This document shows, one piece after another, positions 57,045-61,663 of a stretch of DNA of 64,000 nt. The stretch spans positions 1-64,000 of the forward strand of contig JADGNQ010000007.1 in assembly GCA_017883385.1 (NCBI GenBank). The letters are read 5' to 3'. The translations under genes and the position numbers were made by a program. Source of the DNA: Candidatus Sulfotelmatobacter sp. GTDB taxonomy: Bacteria > Acidobacteriota > Terriglobia > Terriglobales > Acidobacteriaceae. The notes under the pieces are model-generated. The model had not been told where the DNA came from, did no database searches, and saw only the letters and a list, made by a program, of their open reading frames with translations. Each line of letters begins with the position of its first letter. The first letter of the stretch is position 1.

Positions 57045-58034
57045 TTGAGCGCACCGGCCACCATTAACGGGAAAGAAGTATTTGACCTGCTGCGGGACGA
57101 TCTCGTCGCGCTGGAGGGCGAGTTTGGGCGGGACACCGTCTCGGGCGTTCAGGCCATTACGGAAATCAGCGAATATCTCCGCGCAGGCGGAGGCAAAAGA
57201 ATCCGCCCGGCGCTGCTGCTGCTCTCGGCGAAACTGTTCGACTACCAGGGGCAGGGCGCGGTTCGACTGGGGGCGGTGGTCGAGATCATTCATACCGCGA
57301 CACTGGTTCACGATGACATCATCGATGAGGCCAAGACGCGGCGGGGACGGCCCGCGGCCAACACGCAATGGGGAAACTCGAAATGCGTGCTGGCCGGCGA
57401 CTGGCTCTACATGCAGGCTTTCAAGATTGCCGTGCAGGAGAGGAACTTCCGCATCCTCGACACTCTGATTGAACTCACGCAGCAGATGGTTGAAGGTGAA
57501 CTGCTGCAGATGGAAAAGCTCGGCAAACTGATCACCCTGGACGAACACTTCGACCTCATCTTCCGAAAAACGGCCTGCCTGTTCTCGGTTTGCATGCGCC
57601 TGGGGGCGATTCTCGGCGGGGCCACCATCGAGCAGGAAGCCGCTCTGGGCAAGTACGGGCACGATCTCGGCATGGCGTTTCAGATCGTGGACGATGTACT
57701 CGATTTGACTGCTTCCGAAGATGTGCTCGGCAAACCGGTGGCCAGCGACCTGCGCGAGGGCAAGGTCACCATGGCGGTGATCCACGCCTTGGAACGCTGC
57801 ACACTCGAAGAACGAGCCAAGATCGAGACTATTCTGCGCGAAATGTGCTTCAATGGCGTAACCCACGCACACATTCTGGAGATCCTGCAACGGTATGGAT
57901 CGCTGGAAGCCGCCACCACTCGCGCTGCGCGCTACGCGGAGTCAGCGCAGAAGGCAATATGCACGTTCCCCGATTCGGAGATCAAGCGCGCCCTGCTGTG
58001 GGCGCCGGAGTTTGTGGTGGCCAGAGAGAAGTAG
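57045..58034 (+). CDS. Polyprenyl diphosphate synthase (long-chain)
   Basis: A 329-residue trans-prenyltransferase starting with TTG at 57045. GGGKRIRP lies at ~48-55. The first aspartate-rich motif is DDIIDEAKTRRGRP (~90-103) and the second is QIVDDVLD (~214-221). Residues before the first motif (TLVH) lack bulky aromatic blocks at the pocket floor, pointing to a long product such as octaprenyl or heptaprenyl diphosphate (IspB/HepT type) for a quinone side chain. Chain length cannot be fixed from sequence alone. Confidence 0.93.
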   Translation: MSAPATINGKEVFDLLRDDLVALEGEFGRDTVSGVQAITEISEYLRAGGGKRIRPALLLLSAKLFDYQGQGAVRLGAVVEIIHTATLVHDDIIDEAKTRRGRPAANTQWGNSKCVLAGDWLYMQAFKIAVQERNFRILDTLIELTQQMVEGELLQMEKLGKLITLDEHFDLIFRKTACLFSVCMRLGAILGGATIEQEAALGKYGHDLGMAFQIVDDVLDLTASEDVLGKPVASDLREGKVTMAVIHALERCTLEERAKIETILREMCFNGVTHAHILEILQRYGSLEAATTRAARYAESAQKAICTFPDSEIKRALLWAPEFVVAREK

Positions 58035-58359
58035 GAGCAGTTCGCAGTTCGCAGTTCGCAGTTCTCAGATTTCAGTCTCTTCTCACTCGTCGCCCGCGCC
58101 GCATCATCTGCGACCACAAGTAAGAGATTCCTTAGCAGCGGTTGGCGGCAACCTCTTCCCTTGCCGCCATTTACTCTGATGATCCCGGTCACAACGACCC
58201 GTGATTCCGGCCACAGACATTTCTCTCCTCTGCGGACAGAATGCAGGCGATTGGTGGGAGTGTCCGCCGGAGTGGAAGGCTAACGAGACGCACTGGCATG
58301 CGATGAGGCGCGAGTATAGCGACCTCAGTCCTCTCCCCCTGGCACCTGAGAAAGGCAGG
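58035..58359. other. Gene-free stretch with short tandem units
   Basis: 58038-58064 contains four near-exact units of agttcgc. Beyond that no gene was found. The bases from 58085 to 58359 contain several small GC-rich inverted repeats and lead into the structured segment that follows. Confidence 0.5.
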
Positions 58360-58592
58360 TCGCCGAGGGTCCTGTCCGCTGCGGGCAAACCATCAACGAG
58401 AGACGGCGGCTTCAGTCGAAGCTTTAGACGAAAGGCGCCTTGGTTTTTCGACGCGCCGGCCCGGACAGGGCCGGAAGAGACTTCGAGTGTAAGCCGCTGT
58501 CTTGCTCACCCTGACGGGGAAGTCCTCCTGAGAGACTTGGTCCCCGAAAACAGAACCGGGCGTCAGTCCTTCGGACCCGCCCGGTTTTGTTT
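58360..58592 (+). ncRNA. Candidate structured RNA ending in a terminator
   Basis: ggtcctgtccg (about 58367-58377) can pair with cggacagggcc (about 58464-58474), enclosing about 86 bases. Inside are gcttc/gaagc (a 5-bp hairpin) and aaacca/tggttt. A U-rich terminator follows at 58554-58592. The element lies upstream of the DedA-rhodanese gene, so it could be a leader regulating that gene or an independent small RNA. It contains gggcaaacc like a c-di-GMP-I aptamer but not the rest of that aptamer. I cannot name its class. Confidence 0.4.
58554..58592 (+). terminator. Intrinsic terminator upstream of the DedA-rhodanese gene
   Basis: A 9-bp stem (aaccgggcg / cgcccggtt, 58554-58562 and 58578-58586) with an inner gtcc/ggac pair and a UUC loop, followed by ttttgttt. 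It lies about 116 bases before the ATG at 58709. Confidence 0.85.
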
Positions 58593-58686
58593 ATACTGAA
58601 CCCTATCGTGGTTCTGTGAATCAAAGTCCTGCCGAATCATAGCTGTGTCAAATCACGGTTCTGCGAATTCAAGCCTGTTCGTCCAA

Positions 58687-58714
58687 GACTGCGTATGAAT
58701 GACTGCGTATGAAT
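58687..58714 (+). repeat. 14-bp tandem duplication over the DedA start
   Basis: gactgcgtatgaat occurs twice (58687-58700 and 58701-58714). It creates an upstream mini-frame (ATG 58695 to TGA 58712, MNDCV) whose stop overlaps the gene's ATG at 58709. Confidence 0.75.
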
Positions 58715-59680
58715 GACCTTTTCTCCATGATGGCGCGCCACGGCTATGCCCTGACATTCGCTGTGCTGCTTGCGGAGGCGATCGGACTTCCCCTGCCCGC
58801 CGCGATTGCGCTGGTGGCGGCCGGTGCCGCCGTCGCGTCGCACACCCTGTCCGGGCCGGGGATGATTTTCACCGCCATGACGGCGCTCATGATCGGCGAC
58901 ATTGCACAGTTCTGGCTGGGGCGCTACGCGGGCTGGGCACTGCTGGGATTCCTCTGCCGCGTGTCCATGAACCCGGAGACCTGCATTCTCCGATCCGCGG
59001 AATCTTTCTACAAACGGGGCAAGGTGACTCTCGTGGTCGCCAAATTCATTCCCGGAATCAACACCATGGCCGCGCCGCTGGCCGGCAGCATGAAGATGCG
59101 TTTCGGGCAGTTTCTTCGCCTGGACTTCGCCGGAGCTCTTCTGTACTCCGTGACCTATCTGATGGTGGGATATTTGTCCCGCGATTTTCTCGCTGCCACA
59201 TTGAACGGATTCCACGCCGCTGGGCGGGCCATGGAAGTAGTCCTTACCGCCGCACTCGTGGTCTACGCGACCTACCGCGCCGCGCAATTCCGCAAGTATA
59301 AGAAGTATCGCATCGTGCCCCGGGTACAGGTGCAGGAACTTGCCGCGCGTCTGGCCTCGGAAGAAGCCGACCGGGTACAGATTGTTGACGTGCGCAGCCA
59401 CGGATACTACGACATTGGGTCCGAGCGCATCCACGGCTCTATCCGCATCGAGCCCAACAACCTTGAGGAAGAGATCAAGAACCTCTCCAAAGACAAGGAC
59501 ATTTACCTGTACTGTACTTGAGCACGCGAGGCGACCAGCGCCCGGGTGGCGCATCTGCTGCGGGAAAAAGGATTCAACACGTTCGTGATCGTCGGCGGGC
59601 TCACCGCCTGGCGCAAAGCCGGGGAACCGCTTGAGTCTGTGCCCAAGGATGATCTCGTCAAACTTCCAACATTCAATTAG
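58709..59680 (+). CDS. DedA membrane protein fused to a rhodanese with in-frame UGA, probable selenoprotein
   Basis: The frame runs from the ATG at 58709 to the TAG at 59680 with one UGA at 59519-59521 (codon 271). Residues 1-205 are a DedA/SNARE-associated membrane domain (AVLLAEAIGLPLPAAIALV, GRYAGWALLGFLC, VVAKFIPGINTMAAPLAGS). Residues ~215-323 are a rhodanese domain (VQIVDVRSHGYYDIG, IYLYCT-UGA-AREATSARVAHLL, FNTFVIVGGLTAW). The UGA falls at the place of the second Cys of the usual YC-x-C-P-x-E-A-T-S loop, which aligns with the catalytic cysteine. GCGCC/GGCGC (59538-59552) with the loop CGGGT starts about 16 nt after UGA and can serve as a SECIS. An ordinary nonsense mutation is the alternative. 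Confidence 0.75.
59522..59562 (+). promoter_or_regulatory. SECIS-like hairpin after the UGA
   Basis: Five G-C pairs (gcgcc 59538-59542 with ggcgc 59548-59552) enclose the loop cgggt. A second form pairs cagc (59536-59539) with gctg (59557-59560) outside it. The loop begins 21 nt after UGA, inside the 16-37 nt window reported for bacterial SECIS, and it has a G followed by GU as required. The same bases also code for protein. Confidence 0.5.
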
Positions 59681-59762
59681 ACCTGGTCGGGTAAATGCTC
59701 GGGTTGATGCGGCGACAGCCCCGTTATGGTTTCATCCCCTGAGGGTATCCCTGCGGCGCTCG

Positions 59763-60212
59763 CTAGCCCCCGAATTGCCGCAGATGGTGATCCAGATGTT
59801 TGTACATCCCGCGACTCCACTGTTGCGGAGTAAGCGCACCGAAGAACGGATGCGGATGCCGGGTGCATTGGGCCTCCCCTCCATCGTGGAATTGCCGAAC
59901 CTTTAGCTTCAGTTGCTCCTGCTCTCGGTGAAATTCCCGCTGGTCCAATACCACGAGCGTTCTATCGGTGGGATTGTTACGCGAGAATGGCTTCTCGTTT
60001 GTGTAGATCGGCTTGACGAATGGTCCGATCAACCTTCCGACGAAGATACGCGGAGGATTGAGCCGTCCGGATGCCATATCCAGGGCTGCGGAGCAATGTG
60101 CCAGCATTTGCGCCACGTCCATCTTGCCCCACTGCCGTTGCGCAGCAGGCTGCAGTTTGTCGACGCGCGATATCACGTCATCGACTGCTTCTCGTTGGAA
60201 TAGGTTCGTCAT
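59763..60212 (-). CDS. DUF1569 protein (DinB-like)
   Basis: About 149 residues from the ATG at 60212, chosen because GGAGGAG lies 4-5 bases upstream. It is an all-helical DinB/DUF1569-type protein (DVISRVDKLQPAAQRQWGKM, MDVAQMLAHCSAALDMASG, FFGALTPQQWSRGMYKHLDHHLRQFG). His residues in AHCS and YKHLDHHL sit where DinB-like folds bind metal. The function is not known. It is convergent with the DedA gene. Confidence 0.85.
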   Translation of the reverse strand: MTNLFQREAVDDVISRVDKLQPAAQRQWGKMDVAQMLAHCSAALDMASGRLNPPRIFVGRLIGPFVKPIYTNEKPFSRNNPTDRTLVVLDQREFHREQEQLKLKVRQFHDGGEAQCTRHPHPFFGALTPQQWSRGMYKHLDHHLRQFGG

Positions 60213-60331
60213 AATCTCCTCCAAAAACCTGACGGGCCTCGTTGACCGCGGAAAATGATAACACTCGCAAGGCCCGGGCCCTTTTCAGTATCCCTGGCAG
60301 CGGGAGTGTACAATTGGGGCGTTTTGCCCCG

Positions 60332-61663
60332 ATGAACACCCCAGCCAGTCGCGAGGAAAAACCGTTGCGGCCGGTGGTCCTGCAGTCTCCGTCCGCAGCC
60401 ACTCATCCCGGGATGAACCGCGTGCTTTTCCTTTTGGGGCTGTCGGTTCTTATCAACTACATCGATCGCAGCAATCTCTCGATCGCTGCGCCACTGATTA
60501 AAGATGAGCTGGGAATTTCCGCATCGCAGCTGGGCACTCTGCTGTCGGCTTTTTTCTACACTTACGCGTTGCTGCAGATTCCTGCTGGCTGGCTGGTGGA
60601 CCGCTTCGACGTGAAGTGGGTCTTTGCCCTGGGATTCTTTATCTGGTCTGCGGCCACGGCAGTTACCGGCATCCTGCATGGATTTGTGGCGTTGCTCGTC
60701 ATCCGCGTGATTCTCGGCGTGGGAGAATCTGTCGCTTTTCCCGCCTATGGCAAGATCCTCGGAGGTTACTTCGATGAGAGCCGACGCGGTTTTGCTAACT
60801 CCGTGGTCATCGCCGGTCTGGCCCTGGGGCCTGCAGTGGGCATGCTGATCGGAGGAACCGTCGTCGGACGTTTCGGATGGCGGCCATTTTTTGTCACTCT
60901 GGGTCTTGGCGGTTCGCTTTGGCTCGTGCCCTGGTGGCTATGGATGCCGCGCAGAACAACCAGTTCTCCCCGCGCATCGGATCAGCAAGCGGGAGTTCTC
61001 GCCATCCTGGGACAGAGGTCGGCATGGGGAACGTGTCTCTGCCAATTCAGTTTTAACTATTCTTCTTATTTCCTGGTGACTTGGCTGCCCTTCTATCTGG
61101 TGCGCGAACGCCATCTCTCGATGAATCAAATGGCGAGGGCGGGAGGACTCGTCTACCTGCTGTTTGCAACTTCCTCCATGGTGTTCGGAAAGCTGTCAGA
61201 CCGGTGGATTGCCTCGGGCGGTTCTCGAACGACCGTTCGCAAGACATTAGCTGCTCTGGGGAAGATTGGCATGGGAGTCTTCCTGGCAGCGTCGGCGGTG
61301 GCGCCCGACGCCCTGTTTATTGGCACGCTAGCGCTGGCGGGCGTGTTCATGGGCATGTCGGCCTGCAGCATTTGGTCCATAACGCAGACCCTGGCCGGAC
61401 CACGCATGGTGGGCCGCTGGACGGGCGTACAGAACTTTGTGGGAAATTTCGCCGGCGCGGTCGCGCCCGCCCTCACGGGAATCCTGCTGGACAGAACTGG
61501 CCATTTCTACTGGGCGTTCTTTATCGCGACGGCGGTTGCCTGGATCGGCGCGCTCAGTTGGATCTTTGTCGTCGGTGCGGTTGTAGAGGTGGATTGGGAG
61601 AAGTATATCCGGGGAACGCGCACGATTCCGGCTGTTCCCGCACAGGAATCGTCGCCGCCGTAA
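60332..61663 (+). CDS. MFS transporter, anion:cation symporter type
   Basis: A 443-residue transporter from the ATG at 60332 (an upstream frame start at 60242 adds a charged tail). It has 12 hydrophobic spans, the first being MNRVLFLLGLSVLINYIDRSNL, and the motif after TM2 AGWLVDRFDVKWVF. The TM4-5 pattern is RVILGVGESVAFPAYGKILGGYF, and the C-terminal half is GGLVYLLFATSSMVFGKLSDR. These are marks of the ACS family (ExuT/GudP-like), which imports hexuronates and other organic anions with cations. The substrate is not fixed. A TACAAT box lies at 60309-60314. Confidence 0.88.
   Translation: MNTPASREEKPLRPVVLQSPSAATHPGMNRVLFLLGLSVLINYIDRSNLSIAAPLIKDELGISASQLGTLLSAFFYTYALLQIPAGWLVDRFDVKWVFALGFFIWSAATAVTGILHGFVALLVIRVILGVGESVAFPAYGKILGGYFDESRRGFANSVVIAGLALGPAVGMLIGGTVVGRFGWRPFFVTLGLGGSLWLVPWWLWMPRRTTSSPRASDQQAGVLAILGQRSAWGTCLCQFSFNYSSYFLVTWLPFYLVRERHLSMNQMARAGGLVYLLFATSSMVFGKLSDRWIASGGSRTTVRKTLAALGKIGMGVFLAASAVAPDALFIGTLALAGVFMGMSACSIWSITQTLAGPRMVGRWTGVQNFVGNFAGAVAPALTGILLDRTGHFYWAFFIATAVAWIGALSWIFVVGAVVEVDWEKYIRGTRTIPAVPAQESSPP

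Follow-up and report, generated by a model that had tools for sequence, protein, structure and literature searches.

The window, a stretch of 64,000 nucleotides from contig C355 of a 6.8 Mb assembly (G000; 97% complete, 446 contigs), carries on its forward strand a gene (58709-59680) that would encode a DedA (VTT) membrane domain fused to a rhodanese. There are 323 codons in this gene if its UGA is read as selenocysteine, and it ends with a TAG stop codon (59678-59680). The first-pass annotation described an intact DedA-rhodanese fusion with one in-frame UGA (59519-59521), and both the reading frame and the Pfam domains agree with this description. That UGA, codon 271, is the sole in-frame TGA and is followed by 52 codons and then the TAG. 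These codons had been called rhodanese-like, which is confirmed, and both AREATSARVAHLL and GGLTAW are present in the rhodanese part of the protein. Under the standard code, however, selenocysteine genes of this kind end at codon 270.

The DedA/VTT domain spans residues 30-156 (58796-59176), and its match to PF09335 (VTT_dom; 41.9 bits) lies above the gathering score of 33.9, which places the protein in the DedA/VTT family. The rhodanese-like domain spans residues 209-303 (59333-59617; PF00581, 47.7 bits against a cut-off of 22.2). An AlphaFold2 model of the protein (pLDDT 81.2, pTM 0.61) has predicted helices up to residue 198 and a predicted rhodanese fold beyond, and structure comparison with the PDB, mostly over residues 200-315, gave 3tp9_A with Z 15.8 and an rmsd of 1.8 over 103 aligned residues. 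The closest named records come from acidobacterial metagenome bins, where protein identity is 86 to 87% and the second record is from Candidatus Sulfotelmatobacter; the gene itself belongs to a relative of that lineage within the Acidobacteriota.

Among 82 sources whose short flanks were clustered (80 named loci, locus L001 and the window), the genes kept nearby encode a polyprenyl synthetase (49 of 82), yajQ (44 of 82) and tatD (36 of 82). These are housekeeping genes, and no function is inferred from them. Between the polyprenyl synthetase gene and the DedA-rhodanese gene lies an inverted repeat rich in G+C with T's behind it (about 58555-58590), which by eye resembles a terminator. When both strands of positions 57900-60400 were compared with Rfam, nothing matched up to E 1.

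There are 130 homologous loci in which the codon aligned with UGA 271 was read, comprising 30 that were fetched first and 100 chosen among the matches listed. Codon 271 is TGA in 98 of them and a cysteine codon in the other 32 (TGC in 21, TGT in 11), with no other codon down to an identity of about 30%, although the script would have let through S, A, G or T there as well as U and C. All of the first 30 loci, the window included, have TGA. A second collection of 80 named loci, partly from the same assemblies, gave 58 TGA, 17 TGC and two TGT, and the remaining three comprise two that have cysteine by motif and one that ends before the codon. Related genomes almost always carry the protein (199 of 200 have a match), and among the matches listed the site is spanned, with one TGA, by a copy or fragment in 42 of the 45 genus genomes, the exceptions being G015, G025 and G027, where no listed match spans codon 271. 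A quickly built tree of 129 loci, some parts of which have weak support, requires at least 10 changes between selenocysteine and cysteine. This restriction to two alternatives, together with the hairpin statistics given below, indicates that the conserved UGA is not due to chance, and it bears out the selenoprotein reading of the first-pass annotation.

That annotation had also left room for a recent mutation or a sequencing error, and TGA in 98 loci excludes both. The broader idea that codon 271 reflects a nonsense mutation, a pseudogene or a base-calling error draws on the single base that separates TGA from TGC and TGT and on the cysteine form found in relatives. Against it, in addition to recurrence at the same codon, stands the count of in-frame TGA codons in 90 genes, where 78 have exactly one, 12 have none and none has a second. 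According to the match listing, one related copy (G184) has an in-frame TAA besides its TGA. Furthermore, pooled dN/dS for 30 loci of the genus is 0.143 for codons 272-323, after the TGA, compared with 0.210 for codons 21-190, 0.228 for codons 191-270 and, within the rhodanese but ahead of the TGA (codons 216-270), 0.179. Judged from these ratios, purifying selection goes on beyond the TGA, and the chance that the codon is a simple defect is very small.

Two groups of more distant sequences deserve brief mention. A second DedA-rhodanese group, about 35% identical to that of the window (L123-L135 in part, L198-L216), has TGA at codon 271 in 28 loci, 26 of which carry the full hairpin stem described below. 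In addition, three bins labelled Gammaproteobacteria (L285, L286 and L288) hold cysteine copies at 48 to 49% identity, which are either the result of transfer or signs that the bins are mislabelled.

A candidate bacterial SECIS-like hairpin (59538-59552, forward strand) begins 16 nucleotides after the UGA. It consists of a stem strand GCGCC (59538-59542), a loop CGGGU (59543-59547) and a second stem strand GGCGC (59548-59552). All five base pairs are present in 87 of 89 distinct selenocysteine sequences, the exceptions being L126 and L209, versus only 3 of 32 cysteine sequences. Similarly, the full stem occurs in 88 of 90 distinct 42-base stretches, whereas 400 rounds of synonymous recoding gave 6.1 on average (sd 2.4) and never more than 14. 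There are also compensatory changes that preserve pairing, with C-G replaced by T-A in L034 and G-C replaced by A-T in L112-L114. The fourfold degenerate codons 278-281 show a minority share of only 0 to 0.07 within the genus, whereas the mean for 167 such codons elsewhere is 0.41 and just 2% of them are at 0.05 or less.

The proposal in the first-pass annotation that a G+C-rich hairpin serves as a SECIS element is thus upheld by comparison across loci, but single-sequence folding does not detect it. Three stretches of sequence gave z-scores of 0.48, 0.26 and -0.19, no better than shuffled sequences, and minimum-energy folds of the window sequence alone prefer other pairings. The case for the hairpin therefore rests on comparative evidence.

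A search of the same genome for the genes of selenocysteine insertion, which had been put forward as a check, was largely but not entirely successful. Three of these genes, selA (contig C102), selB (running off C168 and finishing on C67) and selD, are present in G000 above curated cut-offs, and selD has an in-frame UGA of its own (GUASK). The selC gene was not found in G000 by Rfam, by pattern or by a genus-built model, with 92 to 150 candidates scored across the 446 contigs. From 150 scored candidates among 1046, RF01852 gave 12 matches that all stayed below its cut-off, and ARAGORN called no tRNA-Sec on the eight of these that were submitted to it. The pattern search gave 0 matches, while the genus-built model (R1) gave none at first and ten up to E 10 in a second search; the three of these that were submitted to tRNA calling were all called as other tRNAs. 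The site adjacent to a peroxiredoxin gene, which holds selC in G019, shows no tRNA-Sec when read in G000.

Elsewhere in the genus selC is common. ARAGORN called a tRNA-Sec with anticodon TCA in 12 of 18 genus-mate loci scanned, and model R1 matched with at least 97 bits in 36 of 45 genus genomes, with 92 to 150 of thousands of candidates scored per genome and with the 10 genes from which the model's 11 rows were built (L069 and L075 being one and the same gene) matching by construction. At this depth of 92 to 150 scored candidates each, a strong match is missing from G000 and from eight other genomes of the genus, including G036, which is 97% complete in about 20 contigs.

Counting selA as present at E 4.1e-44 or below, and among the matches listed, 101 of 104 TGA genomes carry the gene versus 12 of 31 genomes with only the cysteine form (Fisher 2.4e-12). 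This comparison covers 135 of 200 genomes, the other 65 having no classed row; for G077 and part of the TGA genomes the class was taken only from the stop column of the match list, and G184, with both TGA and TAA, was put under TGA. The TGA genomes that lack a clear selA are G005, G032 and G033. When kinship is respected, the supported branches yield four independent pairs, of which a mean of 1.8 run in the expected direction and none in the opposite one (median p 0.5). Thus the association between selA and TGA is not independent of kinship.

Several unusual genes came to light in these searches. In one locus (L148; G001:C9:329-435) two thirds of a tRNA-Sec, on the 3′ side, are preceded by unrelated sequence at the 5′ end, which looks as though selC had received an inserted element. 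There are three tRNA-Sec-like genes in G042 (C230:487-584, C247:504-601 and C247:649-744, with 116, 113 and 48 bits) and two copies on contig C1086 of G035 (110 and 110 bits). A selA match in G140 (C56:5613-6755) bears an in-frame TGA. Finally, tRNA-like genes with long variable arms occur in L006 (1502-1590, or G000:C134:26921-27009), L154 and L158; that of L006, from the window's genome, has an odd anticodon, and ARAGORN makes no call on the other two. They resemble the allo-tRNAs of Acidobacteria described in PMC7609411.

These observations also speak to the idea that UGA 271 is read through as some residue other than selenocysteine, or that the organism's code has changed. An open frame with TGA as a residue does not itself name the residue, and to that extent such a reading would suit the data. 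However, exchange at the site is with cysteine only, the hairpin tracks the selenocysteine loci rather than the cysteine loci, and selA, selB and selD are at hand. A changed code is further contradicted by TGA serving as an ordinary terminator elsewhere, as in tatD in the window and in several family members. We consider both versions very improbable. Instead, on comparative sequence evidence, the DedA-rhodanese gene with UGA 271 almost certainly encodes a selenoprotein, because the site is confined to TGA and cysteine codons, the hairpin is kept in selenocysteine loci and the genome encodes selA, selB and selD. SelB carrying Sec-tRNA would bind the hairpin just 3′ of codon 271 and insert selenocysteine at the UGA, and from comparative genomics we infer that the full 323-residue protein would then be made.

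Perhaps the UGA acts in addition as a selenium-dependent switch, wherein low selenium would yield a 270-residue product that retains the DedA domain, and the two products would have different jobs. The stop would indeed come after a complete DedA domain (residues 30-156), and the arrangement is preserved across the 98 TGA loci. However, the shorter product would contain only about two thirds of the rhodanese domain, with its end missing, and would more likely be unstable. Moreover, cysteine forms persist even though they are unable to switch. For these reasons a switch seems improbable.

The membrane domain has conserved features of its own. In an alignment of 209 loci, some rows of which represent one genome in two collections, the residues at Cys83 (58955-58957) and Cys92 (58982-58984) are cysteine in 208 of the 208 rows that cover them. 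Cys269 (59513-59515), the first residue of the C-x-U motif, is present in 209 of 209 rows, but since C269 and U/C271 belong to the motif used to select the rows, only C83 and C92 provide a free test. The combination of C269 with C, or with U read as C, at position 271 is likewise found in 65 of 65 aligned members of the family, and the motif in the window is C-T-U. A lone DedA protein encoded in G000 does not have the C83/C92 pair.

In undecaprenyl-phosphate flippases, the second re-entrant helix carries two arginines, spaced by six residues, that are described as essential (PMC10127716). In the window family this pair is replaced. Position 112 is lysine in 208 of 208 rows, and position 118 is asparagine in 161, serine in 26, glycine in 15, alanine in five and threonine in one. 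The lone DedA protein of G000, in contrast, has two arginines aligned with positions 112 and 118. Compared with the UptA-type DedA flippases of COG0586, with which it has the VTT domain in common, the window family thus lacks both arginines and has the cysteine pair, and its match to UptA is weak (42.4 bits against a cut-off of 300). Because both described arginines are replaced, the membrane domain is unlikely to be a typical flippase of undecaprenyl phosphate.

Fusions of DedA with rhodanese are themselves already on record in PMC10127716 and PMC12893004, whose passages on these fusions make no mention of selenocysteine. One of them, PA1209 of Pseudomonas aeruginosa, is named in PMC12893004. 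Proteobacterial proteins annotated as 'DedA family protein/thiosulfate sulfurtransferase GlpE' (WP_043095768.1) have the same two domains with cysteine in place of selenocysteine, and are 30 to 33% identical to the window protein in 15 rows among the matches listed. Three proteobacterial fusions from a plasmid collection, when aligned, share both membrane cysteines and the C-x-C motif with the window family, and of the two arginines the first is kept in one of them and the second in none.

One possibility is that the window protein is a plain member of the rhodanese-like selenoproteins of form 3 (NF041203, 'rhodanese_LYCAU'), with only the fused membrane domain being new. Form 3 is a rhodanese with C-x-U (PMC13188914), as is the window protein, and NF041203 is both its best NCBIfam match and a match to 65 of 65 aligned family members. 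However, at 81.7 bits the window protein falls short of the 115 that the curated cut-off demands, and with its 126 positions the model does not extend to a membrane domain, unlike the window protein. In addition, because the three proteobacterial cysteine fusions share all four cysteines, the DedA-rhodaneses look like a family in their own right. We therefore regard simple membership of form 3 as rather unlikely. A further comparison is with TsoB (NF045694), a rhodanese/DsbD fusion-like selenoprotein that, by its name in PMC13188914, joins a selenocysteine rhodanese to a membrane redox domain. TsoB is DsbD-like and has a UxxxxU motif with two selenocysteines, whereas the window protein has DedA and C-x-U, and its model matches only 7 of 65 window-family members, with a best E of 9.6e-7.

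The 2026 review PMC13188914 lists in its Table 1 119 selenoprotein families or subfamilies, including rhodanese forms 1-5 with form 3 as CxU. No entry of that table has DedA or VTT, and the terms DedA, VTT, SNARE and PF09335 are absent from the text of the review. A literature search, made mainly in openly available journal papers, found no paper that joins DedA, rhodanese and selenocysteine. The first-pass annotation had expected the fusion to be unusual. This holds for the selenocysteine form, which is absent from the 2026 inventory, but not for the fusion itself or for the CxU rhodanese, which were known before. With it, a phylum from which few selenoproteins are recorded gains a widespread one in the membrane: PMC1794560, a 2006 survey, has three selenoprotein families on record for Acidobacteria. 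In the genome of one acidobacterium, Occallatibacter riparius, deep-Sep is reported to have given no new selenoprotein (PMC12013277). The repeated changes at codon 271 also make this family a natural comparison of selenocysteine with cysteine.

The active loop of classical GlpE-type thiosulfate sulfurtransferases is C-x-x-G-x-R. The loop of the window protein is instead C-T-U-A-R-E-A-T-S, and the aligned members are alike. UGA 271 had been assigned to the position of the catalytic cysteine, but C269 is a competitor. In two HMMER alignments with the rhodanese 6mxv, the loop cysteine of 6mxv, which we take to be its catalytic residue, is matched by C269 in one and by residue 271 in the other. 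The AlphaFold2 model predicts a strand that ends at residue 268, immediately before C269. The classical nucleophile is therefore ambiguous between C269 and U271.

The presence of C83 and C92 beside C269 and U/C271 suggests a membrane thiol/selenol relay in place of a flippase. C269 and U271 might form a reversible selenenylsulfide, this centre might be a fast, membrane-located chalcogen transferase or reductase, and the invariant C83/C92 pair of the DedA domain might be its redox partner. That all three act jointly in this manner is a tentative proposal, to which we give slightly less than an even chance. A more ambitious version is that DedA-rhodaneses constitute a distinct membrane machine for redox chemistry or chalcogen transfer, wherein the membrane cysteine pair would pass electrons, persulfide or selenide to C-x-U or C-x-C, selenocysteine would speed the reaction, and DedA would have left lipid flipping for sulfur and selenium chemistry. 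We view this extended scheme as speculative and doubtful. Nevertheless, given the invariant cysteine pair and the lost arginines, the replacement of a flippase by a redox relay is a testable proposal, and PMC10127716 calls the tie of DedA-rhodanese fusions to undecaprenyl phosphate unclear. A DedA protein has also been linked to selenite uptake in Cupriavidus metallidurans, in work cited in PMC8679861.
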